NCBI RefSeq assembly: GCF_037975245.1
Contig: NC_092575.1
Location: 1,441,001 to 1,505,000 of the forward strand
From: Apostichopus japonicus
Lineage: Eukaryota > Echinodermata > Holothuroidea > Aspidochirotida > Stichopodidae
Direction of reading: 5' to 3'
Length of the DNA stretch: 64,000 nucleotides
In this document: positions 18,645-59,507 of the stretch, piece by piece
Layout of the letters: each line of letters begins with the position of its first letter
How positions within the stretch are numbered: position 1 is the stretch's first letter
The notes under the pieces: generated by a model
Seen by the model: the letters and a program-made list of their open reading frames with translations, nothing else
The model's database searches: none
Told to the model about the DNA's origin: nothing
Position numbers and translations under genes: made by a program

Positions 18645-19655
18645 TCATTTTACAATCTGAGCACCGGTATATAACTCCGCGTCTCTTGTGAGTGATATTT
18701 CCTTTGGTTTCTCACCACAGAATGGACACGTAATATTCTTTATCAAGATTAGCTTTACATATATGACAGGGTTGATGACATAATTTAGCATAGAAAAGTT
18801 ATAAGTTACATTTGAAATCAACACATTCACGAATAGATCCTCATACGGCTTAATTAGCGTTGGTTGAGACCAAAGAAAAACCGCAACTACACAGGTAGGC
18901 ATATATGTGATAATGTTAGTGAAAAGCACGGAGTAAAATGTCAGCATGATTGCACGGGTGCGTCGGATTCTCCTAATTTTGATTTGAGTTGGTAAGTTGA
19001 GGTGGTTATAAGATTTTGAGAGGGAAGTACCAATGGCAAAGTAGATACTAGCTACTGGTAAGAGGGAACCTGTTATTATACATGGCACCCACTTAATTAC
19101 GACCGCAATATAACTAGTGACCAGATATTTGAATAAAAGAAAGTTCAAACATACCAATACTGTTAAAGAAATGAAAATGGCTGCCATGTATTTCTTTAGG
19201 TTAACCACTTGTTTATAAGTTAGCGGTATTGCACAAAGCGCCAGATACCTATCGATAGCCACACCGCACATACACACAAGTGAATGTTGCGCAATAGTCA
19301 CTAGTGCAGCGTACAGCATAATCGGTGAACGTCCGCATTGAAAGTGACAAAAACACTCGACTATGACGCATGCGCTGAAAGCAAGGTCTGAGATGTTAAC
19401 GAATAAACCGAAAAAGTATGTGGTTTTCCGAAATAAATTGTATTTAATTTGCAACCAGATGACCGTAATATTCGTCAAAACAGCGAATATAGCTATCAAT
19501 AAGCGTAGTAGCACCATGTAACCCCGAAGCCTCTCTTGCTCCTTAGTGAAAACTGACGGCGTTTCAGAGACCGGCAGACCGTTCTCTAAGGTTGTAAGGA
19601 CCATCGTTGTTATGTAACTCATCGTCTCCATGGTAGCGGGAGTAGATGTATTCAT
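18645..19655 (-). CDS. Orphan class-A (rhodopsin-like) GPCR, intronless
   Basis: A single exon of 336 aa with ATG at 19655. Seven hydrophobic segments are visible. Family marks: TM1 with VLTNITVI (Asn 1.50 position), TM2 with NISDLAFS (Asp 2.50), AIDRYLAL (D135-R136-Y137) at the end of TM3, and NPVIY (295-299) in TM7. The N terminus has an NTS glycosylation site and the third loop is basic (KIRRIRRTR). Odd: TM6 lacks the CWxP toggle and reads ITYMP, and the C-tail is short. These point to a rhodopsin-class receptor of a divergent, lineage-expanded type. The ligand cannot be inferred. Intronless class-A receptors are common in marine invertebrate expansions. It is a separate transcription unit from its neighbours. 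Confidence 0.88.
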   Translation of the reverse strand: MNTSTPATMETMSYITTMVLTTLENGLPVSETPSVFTKEQERLRGYMVLLRLLIAIFAVLTNITVIWLQIKYNLFRKTTYFFGLFVNISDLAFSACVIVECFCHFQCGRSPIMLYAALVTIAQHSLVCMCGVAIDRYLALCAIPLTYKQVVNLKKYMAAIFISLTVLVCLNFLLFKYLVTSYIAVVIKWVPCIITGSLLPVASIYFAIGTSLSKSYNHLNLPTQIKIRRIRRTRAIMLTFYSVLFTNIITYMPTCVVAVFLWSQPTLIKPYEDLFVNVLISNVTYNFSMLNYVINPVIYVKLILIKNITCPFCGEKPKEISLTRDAELYTGAQIVK

Positions 19656-28135: not shown

Positions 28136-30862
28136 CTACTTATTCTTTTGATGTGCTAGCCATTGCCTCTTAGCCTCAAACAACAAGATGGAAGCTGACA
28201 TTGCAGAGTTCAAACTATCCACAGCTTTGGACATTGGAATAAATACCGTGGTACCGTGTGTGCTCGCACATAACTCCAGAGCTTCTTGACTGATGCCTTC
28301 AGTCTCACCACCTATGACCAAAGCTGACTGCATTGTCCAGTCCATATCACTGTGTAGCAGCTGGGGTAAGGCATCCTCCCTTCCATCTGTCTGGTTGAAT
28401 GTATCCGCAATGTAGAGGGAAGTGTCAGCGTCTAGATAATTTGGGACCTCGGGCCAGGCTATTCTGTTGGTAACTGGTGTGTGAAAGTGAGCCCCAGCGC
28501 CGGCACGAAGAACCTTTGGATCCCAGATGTCAACGCATCCTTACAAACAAGATGGAGAACTCAGCATATTTTCATACCAATCAGGATGAAATTGTCAAGC
28601 AGAAAGCAGGCTACTGTATGCTGGAAAATTTCTGACAATTTGCAGCAACTTTTAGTATTAAAACTGCCTTTTTTAAATAAAACTAATTTAAAAATACGTC
28701 AATCTCTTATGACCTTCAGAATCTGCTTTGTCAAGTAAGTAACAACTACTTACCAGTATTATTACATCCTACATTCACCACCGCAGACACCTATTTTCTA
28801 AAGGCAAAGTTGGTTTACATGACACTGCATATCCCCGACTGTCCAAATATGGGGATCCAGCTGGCTACACTTATTATAACCAAACTATCAATCCCCATAT
28901 TCCGTTTATCAACCGTTTGTATATTAAAATGACACCAGTAGGGTATCACATTGGTAAAGTGATGGTCAAATGGATTTTCTAAAGCAAATGCATATTTGTC
29001 TTACCTCTTGTAACTAGTATCTTCTCACAGTTAGCTGCTGCAGCTGCTCTGAGGATGGTCCCTAGATTACCAGGGTCTCTGATATTATCACAAACCAATG
29101 TCAATGGTATACAAGGGTCAGAAACATCAGTCTTTATCATATCATAAGAAGGCTTGGTGAAAACACCTGGACAACAGAAAAATAAAGTGATGAATTACAA
29201 CAATGTGTAGAATCCTAATATAAGATATTTTTTCTTCAGATTATGCAAGATGAATAATAAAATAATTGTGAGCTAGGGTGACCATTATCAGACTTTATAG
29301 GTCAGGCCTAGTTGGGAGCAATACTGATGACATTTAAAATGTTTGTGCCACAAAACTAAACAGTTTTAAATCCTTGCAGAAAGTTTAGAAGTCGATGCTA
29401 TTCAAATTTGTTAAGCACATCTTTTCTTGTATTGTTACTCTGTTTTCAAAAATGTTTATACTGAATTTAACTGAAACCTTTTTCAACATTCACAATTCAA
29501 GGAAATGCAAGTTGAAATCTGAAACTTAACTTACCCACAATGCCTTGAGGTGTTGACAAACCAGACCAAATTTCAAATTCTTTGTATGGAATTTTTACAA
29601 GTTCTGTTTCCATCTTGTCGATAGGCAGGCCATCGAGGTTGCTTGTTAAACTGAAGAATATCGTATGGCACTTTGCACCGACTGACAAAGCATCATGGAC
29701 GAGTCGTTTTCCTTCTAAAATCACTTTATTATTTCGTTCTCGTAACTTGCGATTTTTGGCCATCGTCATAATTGAGCTGCAAAACAAAGAAGAGTTAGGA
29801 GAGTCAATAAAGCAGAGTCGGTCAACTTGAAGTTTTGGTAAAAGGGGCCTAGGCCTATGTCTGCATAAATAAAATGAAGATTTAACTTTCATGGAAATGA
29901 AAAGCAAAGGAGTGAGAATTTAAGCCAAAGCCAAATGATCGCAGACTATAAACCAAAGTCCTTGATAGTTGTCAATACTGTGGTAAACCTGGCCACCAAA
30001 CATTGCCAATGAGTGTGAAATTACTCTGCAATATTCTTACACCTTTTTTAATATATATATTGTGTGGCATACAGGTTGGGAGGCCTGACTTTGTAAGAGT
30101 AAGAATGTTTAGTTTAGCGACAATTTCACGCCCACCTCGTTATTCTCTGATTACTAAAATGGCTTATCGCAAGAGAAGCATGATATGATCCCGTTTTCAT
30201 CCACGATTTATCACTTGGATAGGGTTCAAAGGAGCTTCTGTTGGCTTCTTAGACTGACCCTCGGGATTCACCAAGTATTGACTTTTGAATATGTATACTT
30301 GCCCAAATCGTTTGTCCGTAGATGGGGCTTTGGTGTACAAAAACTTTGAGTCATCTTCTTCCAGAATTATACTGCCTGTCTCTTTGTGGTTTCCATGGTA
30401 ATTAGTTTTTCTGTTATACTGATGGTCGTTTTGGTGTTGCAAAGGTTCTACAAACGAAGTGTCACTGACATGAGAACTGGTAATTGCTGTTGAGGTTTGG
30501 TCAACTTTTGCTGGCCTATCATTAGGGAAGCCAAACCTAGGTCTAGTTTCAGGTCGTGTCAGTGAGTTACTGCCTGTAGGTGTTTGCGAAGCCGTCCCGG
30601 GATTTGAGTTGTCGGCCAAAAAAACCTTTAAGGCTTTCCTTCTCAAAGGTCTTCTACCACAAACTGATGTGGATGAATGTATTTGTGAGAGCTGCACTCC
30701 AGAAAACAAGATTTTTCTCAATTTCAATGTCGTTTGTAAAAGCAAAATTGATCGACAAACGTGCACGCTGGAGTTTATGCAGGCCGCCATTTTTACACTG
30801 AGCCGAGAGCTAGCTGTATTGAACGCCAATTGGGTAAATACAAAAATTCCAGATTTGGGCAT
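28136..30862 (-). CDS. MRM3: Mitochondrial rRNA 2'-O-methyltransferase 3 (SpoU family)
   Basis: Four exons: 30862-30303, 29776-29535, 29166-29005 and 28539-28136. The first intron uses a GC donor (GG|gcaagtatac). With it, phases close and the joint reads FGSIMTMAK, aligning with human LSSVMTIVK. Two in-frame starts exist, 30862 and 30790. The second (AAAATGGCGGCC, strong context) gives 431 aa (human 420) and a basic, hydroxylated mitochondrial presequence, so I prefer it. Substrate-binding part: about residues 160-243. The SPOUT knot has motif 1 DNIRDPGNLGTILRAA (from about 270), motif 2 GGETEGIS and motif 3 DSLNSAMSASILLFE. Known role: 2'-O-methylation of a guanosine in the A-loop of mitochondrial large-subunit rRNA, needed for mitoribosome assembly. 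Confidence 0.94.
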
Positions 30863-32707
30863 CTTCAGTTTGTAAGAAACGAATGAGTTTTCTCGATATC
30901 AAATTTAAAAGGATCAAGAGCTTGACTGACATTTTTATGGTGAAATTGCCATATGTGGTACCGAAAACCTACTACCGACCTGGAAAAAAAACTATTTTTA
31001 CTTACTCATTTTAGATTTATATGCCAGCAATGCTTCTTTTGTTATGTACATGACAATTGTCAAAGTGGGTGGCCCTACTCGTGGATATGATGAGGGCATT
31101 CGCGGTTTACTTGTAGTAGAGCATCCTCACTAATTTCATTATTTGGGTGTTCACATTTAGCATTATCCGAGAATTATCTATCACATTTTATGGCTTTCAG
31201 GGAAGTGTAAGAAATCTATGACATTCACATAGGAGAAAATATTAGTGTCAAAAGATTGACTTGATTTGCACTATTTTTAATCTTGTATTTGATTCAGTCT
31301 CGTGGGATAATCTATTACCTACAGTATGTTTACTTCCGTTTAATTTTGCTCCATAGTCAAAGTGAATAAGTGGCCAAATATACCTGAAAGACTACAAATA
31401 AAGATTCTATGATTCATCTTGAACTTTTGATGCTCAGTGTTTGAAGCTAATCCATAATATTCAATAGCAGCAATGTATTTCACTAAGTTTATTTACTAAT
31501 ATCATAATAACTTGAATAATAATAGGTAGGTTTGGTAAAATCATTGTGAGTTGGTGACAATAATATTGGAAGCTTCTATCAAGGGAATATTATATAGTTG
31601 AGGGAATTAGGGGCAACATAGTTGATCTTTTACTTGGTACCTTATGCAATGTTAATTATCATGGTGAATAATGCAGGCAGTCAAAGTAAAATCATTCAAG
31701 TATTCCAAATTTCCAAGAACATATGCTTTCAAAGTTTCTTTACAGAATAAAAGGCAATGAAACGAACACAAAAAAGCAAATACCATGTCATGATCTTGAT
31801 TTGATTAATGTATGTATGCTTCACACAGTTACAGAGATGGGATAAAGTATGTAATATTTTATAACAAAATGATAATGAGTAAAAACAACATGAGTATGAA
31901 GCAGCCTGTTATTTCATATTTTACAACTTCAAACTTTCGGGAGGGTGGAGGTGGCGTACAGGGGTTGCAATGAGCCCCAACTTGAGAGACATTAATTTTC
32001 AAAGGCAAGTGACTCAAACAATTCTCACCTCATAGGAATAAAAGAGTTTTTTACATCTTGGCAAAATACTTTGCAATGGCTTGAATCTACCTTTGGCTTG
32101 TTACAACTCCTTTCGGGGAAAGGGTGAAGGGAGGAGGCGGTTGAAGGTGTAGACAAGAACACAACACGGAAGAAACAAACTTTAGATATGGAAGAGACCT
32201 ATAATCTAGAATTTTTGGTTCTTTTTGACAAGTTTTGCACAGATCTCTTTATTCTACAACAAAACTAACTTGTTGAGTTTGCAACATATTATATCTGCCA
32301 GCCACAAAGCCAATGTACAAGTTTGAATGTACAAAATCACCAGCACTTGAAACACGCCATGCGGCACTTGCATTACACATGTAGCTGAAACTGAGACAAA
32401 CTTGCTCAAAGAGCTCATAAACCTGAACGCTGAAATAGTTTTCATCGTTGAGTTATTGCCAGGCCATCTGCCAATGCCAGCAATTTTGGATGGGAAGAAA
32501 CACTTCCTAACATTTGCACAGAACTGTTTAATACCAGTAACATGACTGAATCTGAGAGAGAGCATGTTAAAGATGGATTATTGTTTATCAAACATCTGCC
32601 AGATTGTTTAAATTGAGAGCAGTCTCCTGAGCAACAGCTTTCAACGGCTGATATTTTGCACATCTTCCTGACAAAATGGTCAAACCCAACCAATGTCAAA
32701 GGTTCCT
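30863..32707. other. Intergenic and THOC6 3' UTR
   Basis: MRM3 promoter side (30.86-31.1 kb) followed by about 1 kb without recognisable features, then the probable THOC6 3' UTR. A minus-strand AATAAA at 32248-32253 lies about 455 nt past the THOC6 stop. Confidence 0.45.
32248..32253 (-). terminator. Candidate polyadenylation signal, THOC6
   Basis: AATAAA on the minus strand (TTTATT on plus), about 455 nt after the THOC6 stop codon. Confidence 0.35.
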
Positions 32708-52213: not shown

Positions 52214-55200
52214 ATGCAACAAGCAGCTTCAAAGAACACAAATTGGTTTAAAACCAAGGCTCTGAATATGAACTTTGACCTGTCAAAATCAGACTACAAA
52301 GCCATTGAAAACATTGGAACAGGTCAGTAAGCCTTTTCATAATTTCCCCTTTGTTTTATCAACCATTTTGCATAATATTCTGCTTCTGCAGAATTCCTAA
52401 CTACAACTGTGGAGGCCCTGCAATATTACATGATAGAGAAAAGATTCAGGGACTATAAATTTTAAGTCACTGGGACAAAATTCTATTCCTGTGAGGTTAT
52501 TGAATGACAGATTTTGTTGTTCAACAATGTAAACATTGCATCTGTGCAACGTTTGGAAGGAATAATATAGTGATGTACAGTACAGTAGGAAGGTGATAGT
52601 ATATACACTATGTTCTGAAAGTCCTTTAAATAAAATGACTGTGCTTTGCAAAACCTCAAGTGGTACTTTTGATAGTCAGTATAAATTTACAGCTTTCTGT
52701 GTGGTCAAATAGAAGTTGCACTGAAATAAAAAAGGTCTTTCACAAAGCTATGATTGGAAGCAAAAAACGTAGCATCACTTGATGAAACCAAAACTCATTG
52801 ATTATATACTATGTAAAACTTGTGTTGCAATTTAAACAACATTCTCAAGCTGGCAATATCATGTATAAGTTGTTGTCCAAAGCCATCAGAGTAATTGATA
52901 TTCAAAGGGTTTCCAAAGTTTTCACATCACTCTAGCCAGTTTTGCATACCTTGCAGTCTAGTATTATAACCATGAAGTCCCATGCCTTTGGTACCAAGCA
53001 CCTGTTCATATAATGTATCAGCCTATATGATCTTTTGAAGGTTTTGTAATGACAATTGATCACAGCTCATGTCATGGTTGAATGTCTTATAAATACGGTA
53101 AGAATATCTTATAAATACGGTAAGAGACATGTATTTAAATACTATGTTATTATTGAAATTGTAGTAGAAGTTTGGGTAAAATACACTTTAAGGCCATTTG
53201 TATTGCTTCCAAATAGGCTAAAAAGTCATTTAATGGTCACCCCTACTTAAACTCAAACGATCTCATCACTACCACAAATAGAGGATCTTTCCTAAGAGAG
53301 AGATGATCAGTCTAAGTGAACAGTCCTCAAAGGTAGTGAAGGATATCTATAGAGTCAAAACCCACACAGAAAATACTCTACTTTTGAAAAATTTAGCAGT
53401 TTTTAGCTGCTAATCTTTGTTACCGTAACTGACGACCTTTTTAATATTTTGAGAAAGTGCTGACATTGTTATTTCTGGGATTTCAATGCATGCTACTGTT
53501 CACAGAGTATTATTAGCATGAACACTTTTTCCACTTTCCCACCTCTCTTCAGGTGCCTATGGTGTGGTATGTTCAGCTGTCCAAGTGAAAACTGGGAAAA
53601 AGTTTGCTATCAAGAAGATACCCAATGCTTTTGAAGAAATCATAACAGCCAAGAGAACGTTCAGAGAACTTAAAATCCTTCGGCATTTTGATCACGAAAA
53701 TGTGATACGGATCCATGAAATTCTCATGCCCAGGGAAGCTCTGAGTGAGTTCAAGGATGTTTACGTTGTTATGGACCTAATGGAGAGTGATTTGCATCAA
53801 ATATTGCATTCCAATCAACCGTTCACAAACGAACACACGCAGTATTTCTTGTACCAGATCCTTCGAGGCTTGAAGTACATCCACTCTGCTAACGTCGTCC
53901 ATCGTGACCTCAAACCGAGTAACTTGCTCGTCAATGAAAATTGTGAGCTGAAAATCGGTGACTTTGGAATGGCGAGGGGGATGTCATCGAAAATAGATTC
54001 TCACAAGAAACTCTTCATGACCCAATATGTAGCCACGAGATGGTATCGCGCTCCAGAACTCTTATTTTCTGCTTTCAACTATGCCCAGAGTGTCGACATG
54101 TGGTCCGTCGGCTGCATCTTTGCAGAGATGCTCGCCAGGAAGCAGTTGTTTCCGGGAAAGAACCCTGTCGATCAGCTGATGCTGATCATCAACGTTCTCG
54201 GCATGCCTCCAGACAGCATGCTGGAAAGCGCAAACAGCGACCAAATTGTGACATTCTTTAAGAAACGATTTGGAGCGAGAAAACCCATTGGCTTGGGCAA
54301 TAAAGTGAAGCCAGCCAGCCCAGATGCTCTCTCATTACTCTCCAAAATGTTGGCATTTGTCCCGGAGGAAAGAATTTCCATAATGGACGCTCTCAAAGAT
54401 CCATTTGTCATTAATTATCACGATCCAGACGATGAACCAATATGCCTGCCCAAGTTTGACTTTTCCTTTGACGACCAGCCGATGAGTACCGACCAGATAC
54501 GACAGCAAGTCGGAAAAATGATTCTGAAATACAGTAGACAAAAAATGAGCTCTTTAAAACTACCTGGCGGTTCAGCAGTGTCTCCAAAGCCGATGGAACC
54601 CTTTGATGATTTAACACCGGTTTCAAGTGCTAGTATCGGTTCTGGTGGGAAAGTACAGATGCAGAAAGCTTTGAAAGATAGAGAAACTTTAATTGCTGAA
54701 GAAATTGGCAGTAAAGTGGCAGAAGTGCCAAAAAGTGAGAATGTAGCATCATTTTTGAAGCCGGCAACACCGCCATCTCTCCAACCTGTTGGGGGGACAA
54801 GTCCTTTGAAAGTCACTTCTGGTCAGGTGACTACAGATGTCGAAATGAAGAGTGCCAGGTCTGCCTGTAACGATGCGGTTAATAGCATATTAAGCATCAC
54901 AGCCAAACCGCAAAAGGGTCCAGGTGGGAAATCTGACGTGGAAATGAAAAGCGCTCAACGAACCGATAATGACGGTACACTAGAAGTTCCAGCGGATGTT
55001 CAAATGCTCAGTGCAAAAAGTGAGAAGGGAAGGAATGAAAATGTCACTAAGAACAAAGCCAAAGTACCAGGGAATCAGTTAGAAGAGTCGCAGGTTATGA
55101 AAGTGGTAGAAAAAGACAAAGTGTCAACAGAGGGAGCTGTTGTAGCTGACCATGGGGCTATCTTAAAAAGTCAGCTGGGAACAGGAGGAGAGGACATGAA

Positions 55201-58200
55201 AGCCCTAATCAAGGCAGCTCTGAAAAATTCAGTTTTGATGAAAAGCAAGCTAAAGAAAGGACAGCAAGGTTAGTTGAACTGCAAATTTGAATAAAAATTA
55301 CATTCCAATATGAATTGACCTTACCTTGTACAGTATCTATGACATGTTTCGTAGCATCTAGTTTGCAATTTTTGATATTACTTGATATGAGTGGAGTGTG
55401 TGCTTTTATTTAATATACATGTTCAAGTTGTTTGATCAAATGGTTTAAGGATGACTTTAGGCACAGAATTTGTATTGCTACGTTATAGATTGTTATATAT
55501 ATATATATATATATATACTCTACTAGCAGTCCAGGTTGTAATTCTATACCACGTAGAATTTATGACAAATGACCCTTGTTTTACACAGATGCACCCATTT
55601 AATAAAGCGACTGAACTACTTAGTCTACATTAATACACTGACCATTTGGCCTGTTCCCTTCAGATGCAGCACAAAACTCAATTGGAAAATATATAAACCT
55701 TTTATGGTTTTAACTTTCAACTGATAATTACAAACTTGTCAATGACAAATGGTGCTGAATGACATTCACAGGTGCTCTGGTACTATAAGAACTTTGAAAG
55801 AACATGTTTTAGTTGATATATTAGAATATAAAACCGCTTAACATTAACATTTAGTCCTGCACCAAGGAGTTGACTTCACCATCAGTTTAGCCTTAAAGGA
55901 GCATTCCAGAGATTACGATATTTTAAAGGTGAATATCTAAATGCGTTACCCAGCACAGGGTCTATTTCACTGATGTAGGCCCTCAAGGTCCGATCCTAAA
56001 TAAAGTCGTGTTTGATGTTTAACTTAGATATATCTTGATGCGATACCCAGCACAGGGTATATAACTCTGATGTTAGCCCTCAGGGTCCGATCCTAAATAA
56101 AGTTATGTTTGATGTTGAACTCAGATAATGACCTTACAATTTGCTACCTGTCCAAAAATGGCTCAGAAGCCTGTTTGGTTATTTGAAATGGTAACTTGAT
56201 ACAGTAGGTTATTTTGTACAAAATCCCTCACAAAGAACTTGTATTATGGAAAAGTTGAACCCATTATCCTGCTTGTTGTAGGTCATGACCATCCTGTAAT
56301 ATTTTCAAATTCATCAACTTTGTTTCTTCGAATAGATATGCACCCTCGAGACCAACGACCGACCCGTAAGATGTCTCTCGCCCAAACGAGACAGAAAGAG
56401 AGGGAGGAGAAGAGGCGACAGAGGCACAAACGAGCAAAGGAGAAACAAAAGAAACACAAAGCAAATTCAAAAGAGAGTGAAACGGAGGGGTCACTGCTTA
56501 CTACAGAGGACAGAAACTTGTTGGAAAAGTGGAAGGAAATGCAAACTAAGGATTCTCAAAGTCGGAAGGTGGTTCGTAGCAATCCCAGTCCGGGTCAGTC
56601 TTCGTCAGCTGTAACTCAATCACAGTCAACTTTGACCCCTGTCATGAATCTAAACCCCACAGGGGGTCAACCTGCTGCCCAGGGAGTCATCCTCACTTTG
56701 AGTAATTCGTCAGTGGTTACCAATGGCAACCAGAATCTCATCTTTGTTCCCGTGGTAACAGTGCCCGGTAATCCAGTGTCTACAAACAGTTCAGCAATTT
56801 CACAGACGGTTGCCGTCATAAGCGACAATTCAGGGAACATCGGTCCCTCTCAGACTCTGACTTACACGTCACAGAGTGTTCATTCACCGTCGATGCTGAA
56901 TATTAGCTCGAGGGCATCGAATGCCCCCCCTCTTGACAGCCTCTCATCCTTCCAAGATGCCCCTCAACCTACCATTACCGATGACGCATCTGCCAGTGGC
57001 TTTACAGATATTACATCATTACTGATGGATTCCCCGGATCCAAAGTCAAGCCCCACACAGTTAACAGACGACGTCTTTCTCGGTGGTGCAGGTAAAACAA
57101 TGGCAGGTACTCCCAGAGGAGGTTACCGGTCCGATGCGTACAATGACACCCCGTCTCCTCCATCCTTCCTATCCAGATCAGGGAGTGAAAGCTACCTGCC
57201 TGAGCATCAAGGAGGTATGTATTTTGTTTTTATATAGTGACACCATGTCCATATACTACCACCATTTCTATATTGTATACTGTCATACCATTATATATAT
57301 ATGTTGCAACCATACTGCCAACTCTTGTTTTATATACCTGCAGATGGTACCAAGTTTTCTTGATCAAAATTTGGCATCTTATGTGTCAAAAGTACGTGTC
57401 AAACTGAAGGATTAAATGATTGAAAAAGACATTTCCAATGTCATCTTCAGGAAGTCATTTTTCTGTTAGCTGTTTCAGTGCCACACTCTTGCATAAGTCT
57501 TGATGTTTTCCAACCAGGAGCAGCCTGGTTTGTTAATGGCAGATGACAGCTGACATGATCGTCAAGCAGCCATCTTGTAATTTACAGACATTTCAGCCGT
57601 CGAATCTTGTTTTTGCACAGCCAGGATGAAAAGTCAAATGGTTATAAGCCTTTGTAAATTCTTAATAGATCTTTCCTCACAGGAAATACATCCCTCACAA
57701 TAGCCTATATCTTACACCATGTGACTTTGGTAAAACACATTCAATATATTTTAAAGGGTACCTTTGCATAGCAATAATACCCTACAGGGCATTGCCTGAG
57801 ATCAACCCTCAGGGCTTGTCTAAAACCTGAAAGAGTAAAACGATAACTGGACAATCTGGAACAGAACTACCCAGAAAGACAATCTGACAAAGACCATGAA
57901 AAAATTGGTCTTGGAAAAACCATTCTTAAGTTTATTGCATGGGTAGGTTCAATAGAAAGATGCCAAAGGTCTTGAACCAGCAATGAGTCAACAAGAGTGC
58001 TGATGATTTTACTGCAAATTGTGGGCTAGGTAGCAAGATGAGAGTGCAATGATTAAGTGGAGACAGGTAAGAGAGGTGTGCAGTAAATACCCAAACAAGC
58101 TAGTTTTTTCCCAATTTTCTGTATCAGATAATTGTTTTTATTTTTCAAGGGTTAATATCATATAGGAACAATCATTCAAGTTTTTACAAAGGTCATTTGG

Positions 58201-59507
58201 GGTCACCAGGGGTCAAATTGTGAATACCTTGTAATCACGATATCTCAATACTGGAAGCTTGGGCCAATCACTAATTTAGTGTGTAGAAGTACCTCATTGA
58301 GTTAAAGAAGCCTAGTGTTTTTGGTGGAGGTCAAAGGTCATTTAGGGTCATCAGAGGTCAAATCATAAAACCCTTGTAGATTATGTCAGATTCATGAAGA
58401 AAACTGCTCATGTTACATCATTGAAACCACAATGCATTTTTGCATTCTGGTTACACTTATCACCATCAGTGATTCAGTATGCTTTGGCAAAGTTTTAGAT
58501 AGCTCAAGCTGTACCTCTGCAATATTTTAAGTTTCTCCATCCTGTCGAGAAAAGACAAAAACAACATAAACTTTGCTGATATCTTTAATATTTCCAACTT
58601 TGAAGACTTAACATTCATCATCTACAAAACCATTTAGTTTCTCTGTTTTTCTTTTCATCCAAACTATATCACTCATTAGGTCAGTCCACTTAATGGATCC
58701 CTCTGTTATTATCTAGTTCTGTCTTTTTGCTATAGGTCCAATTAAAGATGCAGCTACCCCTCCTGATATGAACGCAATATCGGATCATTTAGCCCGCTCA
58801 GCCGTCCTGAACGACCCCTTTCCGTACCTCCAGCTGACCCCGAGGGGCGATGGGTCTGGATACGGCCTCGGAGTCAACCTGGAGGACTTTCTGTGCGACA
58901 TCCCAGAATCTGATGAGGAGCATGGAGATGTTGATCCAAGGTATGAATTGATTAAATGGTTCTATTGACTGAATGACTTATTTTCATTAATTCTTAACCT
59001 TAGATTGATGAAAAGGATTGATCAATGTATGGATTGTTTCATTCGATTGGATGATGTAGTTAATTGAATAAGTAAATTCATTTCTAGGTTGATCGATTGA
59101 TACAATTTTTTGATTGATTGATGTAATTCATTGGCTATGGATTGTTCATTGATTGGTCAATTGATAGATGTACATTGTTGATTGATGTAATTCGTTGATG
59201 ATTTCATTGATTGATCAATCGATAGATGTACGTTGTCGATTGATTGGTTGACCTGATTGACTGTCTGATTGACTAATTGATTGATTGATTGATTTTTCAT
59301 CCTTTTCGTTGCAGTAAATCTTCAGCGGAGGCCCAGCTGTCTGCTTCTGTCTTATCTGGCATATTGAGGGAGCATGATCTGAACCCAGATGACCTACAGG
59401 CCATTCAACAGGAGCTAGGACTCACCTCTCCAATCTCCTTAGGCAACTTATCACAGCTCAGTCCAACCACTACAACAGCATCTGCCAGTCCTGAATGCAG
59501 GAACTAG
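52214..59507 (+). CDS. MAPK7: MAP kinase 7 / ERK5 with TQY activation loop
   Basis: Coding exons: 52214-52322, 53553-55268, 56336-57214, 58736-58940 and 59315-59507. Phases close, giving 1033 aa (human 816). Kinase domain: glycine loop IGTGAYGVV, Lys57 (FAIKK), HRD at 153-155, DFG at 173-175, then FMTQYVATRWYRAPEL with T193-Q194-Y195 in place of the TEY expected for ERK5. Docking region: NYHDPDDEP. The long tail keeps ERK5-only landmarks: DMKALIKAALKNS, the basic nuclear-localisation stretch KEREEKRRQRHKRAKEKQKK, LLTTEDRNLLEKWKEM, GSGYGLGVNLEDFL and the C-terminal SASVLSGILREHDLNPDDLQ. Three DVEMKSA-type motifs sit at residues 465, 498 and 518. Known role: MEK5-activated kinase that also co-activates transcription. 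ATG at 52214 is the first in its exon. Confidence 0.96.
53086..53125. repeat. 18-bp direct repeat
   Basis: CTTATAAATACGGTAAGA occurs at 53086-53103 and again at 53108-53125 in ERK5 intron 2. Each copy ends in a donor-like GGTAAGA. Confidence 0.85.
55493..55516. repeat. Short (TA)n run
   Basis: About 24 bp of TA dinucleotides in an ERK5 intron. Confidence 0.9.
55930..56125. repeat. 97-bp tandem duplication in ERK5 intron
   Basis: The block with CAGCACAGGG, then GTCCGATCCTAAATAAAGT and GTTTGATGTT occurs twice, with CAGCACAGGG at 55951 and 56048 (97-bp period). The copies differ by scattered changes. Confidence 0.8.
58186..58375. repeat. Paired AGGTCA-rich repeats
   Basis: Two copies of a segment like AAGGTCATTTGGGGTCACCA followed by GGGGTCAAAT lie near 58188-58217 and 58335-58365, about 145 bp apart, in ERK5 intron 4. 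The second copy is preceded by AGGTCAAAGGTCA (58328-58340), a perfect DR1 of nuclear-receptor half-sites. It probably belongs to a dispersed repeat family. Confidence 0.6.
59000..59295. repeat. TTGATTGA-rich low-complexity intron
   Basis: The last ERK5 intron is largely degenerate TTGATTGATT repeats running right up to about 20 bp before the acceptor at 59314. Confidence 0.85.

Follow-up and report, generated by a model that had tools for sequence, protein, structure and literature searches.

We identified an ERK5 (MAPK7) gene whose activation motif reads Thr193-Gln194-Tyr195 (residue numbers of the gene model) instead of TEY in the window, that is, the whole 64,000-nucleotide stretch of Apostichopus japonicus DNA that was analysed. 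Both phospho-acceptors are retained. We consider it probable that the glutamine is a real and conservative substitution at the level of the species or lineage, in an intact ERK5 that has kept activation by a MEK5-type kinase.

The motif lies on the plus strand within 54017-54031 (ATGACCCAATATGTA), which translates as M-T-Q-Y-V, with ACC at 54020-54022, CAA at 54023-54025 and TAT at 54026-54028. These codons fall inside a reading frame that runs for 583 codons from stop to stop (53522-55273). Eleven distinct MAPK7 sequences head the best 60 PDB matches, and Glu occupies the column of Gln194 in all six MAPK7 chains that have a residue-level alignment. Within FMTxYVATRWYRAPEL, the x (Gln versus Glu) is the sole mismatch to the MAPK7 chain in 16 residues. 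Within the window, the pattern TxYV(A/V)TRWYR has a single occurrence, and none of 100 shuffles contains it. A preliminary description of this DNA had reported a CAA codon and a TQY motif in an ERK5 loop, and the codons, the frame and the PDB alignments confirm this. The same protein has another TQY at residue 132 (within EHTQYFLYQ), which lies away from the activation loop and is irrelevant to the motif.

We built the gene model from splice consensus, frame and homology. It comprises five coding exons encoding 1033 residues and ends in a stop codon at 59505-59507; its four introns all begin with GT and end with AG, and upstream non-coding exons lie outside the model. The features are listed in Table 1. 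The ERK5 kinase domain sits almost entirely in the single exon at 53553-55268. According to a passage of PMC3202601, MAPK7 has about 6 exons in mammals and about 10 in fish and amphibians. The intron 3' of the kinase exon contains a 97-base unit in two tandem copies (55933-56126, 86% identity) that is perhaps part of a dispersed repeat.

Table 1. Coordinates of the ERK5 coding exons and of the conserved elements in the window
Feature	Coordinates	Strand	Basis
Coding exon 1: start codon, N-terminal segment and beginning of the glycine-rich loop, followed by a GT donor	52214..52322	+	splice sites, frame
Coding exon 2: almost the entire kinase domain, then the first part of the tail	53553..55268	+	frame, PDB match, PF00069 8.7e-65
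RTFREL (71-76), alphaC helix; Arg71 four residues before Glu75	53654..53671	+	model protein
Met110, gatekeeper position; Leu in the aligned MAPK7 chain	53771..53773	+	MAPK7 alignment
HRDLKPSN catalytic loop	53900..53923	+	MAPK7 alignment
DFGMARG, start of the activation segment	53960..53980	+	MAPK7 alignment
Thr193-Gln194-Tyr195 activation motif	54020..54028	+	codons ACC CAA TAT
CAA codon, Gln194; Glu in PDB MAPK7 chains	54023..54025	+	alignment to PDB chains
YHDPDDEP, acidic docking-type motif, same as in the MAPK7 chain	54416..54439	+	MAPK7 alignment
Coding exon 3: tail with basic cluster	56336..57214	+	frame, splice ends
Basic cluster REEKRRQRHKRAKEKQKKHK, candidate nuclear localisation signal	56401..56460	+	predicted function
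Coding exon 4: start of the conserved C-terminal segment	58736..58940	+	splice ends, C-terminal alignment
Coding exon 5: end of the C-terminal segment, stop 59505-59507	59315..59507	+	splice ends, C-terminal alignment

The catalytic domain is nearest to ERK5 among MAP kinases. When the kinase part (53555-54640) was compared with the PDB, the 11 MAPK7 sequences, which we take to be human, stood at the top of the best 60 of 2722 matches, with E about 4e-124 and scores of about 415-417 bits. Behind them among these 60 came 'Mitogen-activated protein kinase 4', presumably a plant kinase, at 343 bits. The Pfam model PF00069 matched the kinase domain at 8.7e-65. Of 318 aligned residues, 186 are identical to the MAPK7 chain, as are 43 of the 54 columns from HRD to APEL. 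The glycine-rich loop, AIKK, RTFREL, HRD, DFG, VATRWYR and YHDPDDEP are retained, the last of which we take to be a common-docking-type motif. The protein also has the features of a conventional TxY MAP kinase, namely Thr and Tyr around one residue, VATRWYRAPE and the alphaC arginine. In ERK2 structures, a set of arginines that includes the alphaC arginine holds both loop phosphates. The spacing of Arg71 and Glu75 equals that of Arg65 and Glu69 of ERK2, and the alphaC arginine (Arg65 of ERK2) is called invariant among MAP kinases in a passage of PMC10458722.

The tail is about 680 residues long, as in an ERK5, and carries at residues 631-650 a basic cluster whose composition would suit a nuclear signal. 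The third-exon part of the tail (56335-57214) had no Pfam match at 0.001. Aligned with a human ERK5 C-terminus that was entered by hand, the last 140 residues scored 152, and the best of 1000 shuffles scored 60. The preliminary description had also called the HRD and DFG motifs and the ERK5 tail intact, and this was borne out, with the tail judged against that hand-entered human sequence. The likeness to MAPK7 chains of the PDB (e.g. 6hkn, 4b99) and to ERK5 thus extends over the kinase domain, the loop from FMT onward, the long tail, the basic cluster and the C-terminus. The window protein differs from the chains in having Gln for Glu in TxY, Met for Leu at the gatekeeper, and an activation segment that is one residue longer and diverged before FMT. 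Together, the PDB ranking, the kinase identity and the C-terminal match make orthology to ERK5 well supported, and the gene would accordingly be an ERK5 by both kinase and tail, with an exception in the TEY motif only.

We weighed whether the gene might be a decaying or inactive copy with a drifting loop. The altered residue would fit such drift, although it is a single one, and the model is open over 1033 codons, keeps the catalytic residues and both phospho-acceptors, and has a tail conserved to its end. Because HRD, DFG, the alphaC arginine, the acidic motif, the basic cluster and the tail are all present, the gene does not have the look of decay, and we regard this explanation as scarcely credible.

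A second explanation is that the species has TEY, and that the codon arose from faulty sequencing or assembly or is a rare allele carried by the individual that was sequenced. CAA and GAA are one base apart (a single step holds if the ancestral codon was GAA and not GAG), and the surrounding stretch has no other difference from the MAPK7 chain, both of which would be expected under this explanation. Nonetheless, the frame stays open over 583 codons and none of the four introns departs from GT-AG ends, so that the region is without sign of poor assembly. The loop from FMT onward has no other oddity; the diverged, longer segment precedes it. A lone G-to-C substitution is also an uncommon kind of assembly error. 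We therefore judge an error or a private allele to be unlikely, if the least unlikely of the alternatives considered.

The preferred reading, a genuine substitution in a working ERK5, draws on the CAA codon in an open 1033-residue model and on the existence of natural TQY MAP kinases elsewhere. Those precedents are all from other MAP kinase subfamilies, which counts against it. The Leishmania MPK4 and MPK12 share TQY with the window protein and belong to other subfamilies, with no orthology to ERK5 claimed. Plant MAPKs have Gln at the matching motif position in Brassica rapa MPK10-3 (group A) and in six soybean kinases, and plant MAPKs lack the ERK5 tail. The MAPK of Umbelopsis ramanniana has TQY in common and comes from a fungal lineage.

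In the portions of these sources that were available, the Leishmania MAP kinase motifs comprise TDY, TEY, TQY, TNY, THY and TIY, with TQY in MPK4 and MPK12 of both L. major and L. mexicana (PMC3100106). LmxMKK5 was reported there to phosphorylate LmxMPK4 on T190 and Y192, a dual phosphorylation by a MAPKK. Six soybean MAPKs were described with TQY (PMC4270029), and BraMAPK10-3 was given TQY out of 32 MAPKs of Brassica rapa (PMC4501733). A plant survey that covers 589 MAPKs in 40 species, in the passages at hand, names BrMPK10-2 alone for TQY (PMC4363184), which disagrees with the soybean count of PMC4270029. In parts of a fungal survey, TQY was found in one species (U. ramanniana) of 173 fungal and fungus-like species, and its authors state that novel motifs still await functional characterisation. 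A passage of PMC4427623 says that a TQY motif was earlier described in nematodes, so examples among other animal MAP kinases may already be on record.

The preliminary description held that the middle residue sorts MAP kinases. This holds less strictly than supposed, because the surveys, as far as their available parts go, place Q, N, H, S, T, I, V and F, beyond E, G, P and D, at this position in trypanosomatid, plant, fungal and fungus-like MAP kinases. Its identification of the gene as ERK5 and of the codon as CAA stood, whereas the altered recognition by a MEK5-type kinase that it raised as a possibility may occur but is not favoured by the precedents, since TQY MAP kinases occur in several lineages and one of them is reported to be dually phosphorylated by its MAPKK. 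TQY would thus be rare yet compatible with a working, MAPKK-activated enzyme. That rarity in the surveyed material counts against the preferred reading, as does the fact that Gln194 is the sole change in its 16-residue stretch, from which the site looks constrained in ERK5.

Under the preferred reading, the gene would be expressed and CAA would be fixed in the species or lineage. A MEK5-type MAPKK would phosphorylate Thr193 and Tyr195, the conserved arginines would hold the two phosphates, and the active kinase and its tail would act in the nucleus. The observations behind this reading are those of sequence, frame, splice ends, kinase identity and conservation. As the phospho-acceptors and their partner residues are kept, we expect switching by dual phosphorylation. 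Exchanging Glu for Gln removes one charge and leaves size and polarity as they were, so it would be tolerated, with at most a shifted rate or preference.

An alternative is that the substitution changes function: without an acidic middle residue, the loop would autophosphorylate more readily and this ERK5 would depend less on MEK5 than TEY forms do. A neutral middle residue might loosen the loop. The relevant comparison is with plant mutants altered at a glutamate of the phosphorylation lip, which, by the spacing and the sequence of these kinases, we take to be the x of TEY. The window protein has Met110, which we assume to be the gatekeeper by correspondence with ERK2, and it aligns without gaps to the MAPK7 chain in the beta3-alphaC loop, which has the ERK5 length; both features agree with easier self-activation. 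Passages of PMC4861982 report raised intrinsic activity for plant MPK6 changed at Asp218 and Glu222 in the lip and for the equivalents in MPK3 and MPK4, with MPK4 D198G/E202A constitutively active in plants, and these double mutants including the lip Glu favour self-activation here. Autophosphorylation in the ERK5 branch is tied, in a passage of PMC6692128, to methionine as the gatekeeper and to a beta3-alphaC loop longer by one residue, and the same source describes the methionine as kept along that branch.

The plant MPK4 change, however, replaced two residues at once with Gly and Ala, in another subfamily, and did not exchange Glu for Gln. What was available of PMC6692128 ascribes high basal activity to ERK5 generally, so it would not be due to Gln. 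The aligned MAPK7 chain has Leu at the gatekeeper column, which means that the Met trait is not uniform in ERK5. An alphaC arginine of the type described in part of PMC10458722 as a brake on ERK1/2 autophosphorylation is retained as Arg71, and the natural TQY kinase of Leishmania is phosphorylated by its MAPKK (PMC3100106, in the part available). In our assessment the evidence would warrant a test rather than a conclusion, and easier self-activation appears improbable. We give still less credence, as a quite remote prospect, to the broader proposal that a whole animal lineage swapped TEY for TQY and that, with a Met gatekeeper and a long beta3-alphaC loop, its ERK5 self-activates with little need of MEK5 and is controlled by the tail.

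We searched for relatives and for earlier reports. The window kinase had no relative in the virus collection, where 4 stretches matched the search pattern, or in the prokaryote collection, where 22 stretches did; the TxY pattern had no match in the virus collection. With an alignment as the query, 268 stretches of the prokaryote collection yielded 5 loci, all from bacterial records and 26-30% identical, and 82 stretches of the virus collection yielded none. As these collections hold viruses and prokaryotes, the misses have no meaning for TQY in relatives of the gene. The literature searched, which covers few subscription journals, contained no report of TQY in ERK5 and no occurrence of the peptide strings tqyvatr and mtqyv. 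The TQY passages seen in PMC3100106 and PMC4427623 concern kinases other than ERK5. PMC3202601, whose main text has neither TXY nor TEY, refers to orthologues of MAPK7 in marine invertebrates and in a nematode, and the available portions of PMC12692606 and PMC7016714 refer to E184 and describe no missense test of this residue.

If the substitution is fixed in a lineage, it would provide a natural experiment on whether the central TxY residue, commonly treated as a label of the pathway, matters to the MEK5-ERK5 pair. Its interest would grow if it proved fixed across the lineage. Phospho-TEY antibodies may miss a TQY kinase.

Searches with Rfam (at gathering score) and a tRNA scan gave no matches. 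A single-frame protein of 336 amino acids on the minus strand (18648-19655) had a weak match to a rhodopsin-type receptor, scoring 30.0 bits against a Pfam cut-off of 30.5. Also on the minus strand, Pfam detected a SpoU methylase family match at 28139-28540 and an MRM3-like substrate-binding domain at 29500-29919, whereas the frame next to these, at 30200-30898, had no Pfam match. The frames in 28139-29919 probably represent exons of a gene for an MRM3-type rRNA methyltransferase.
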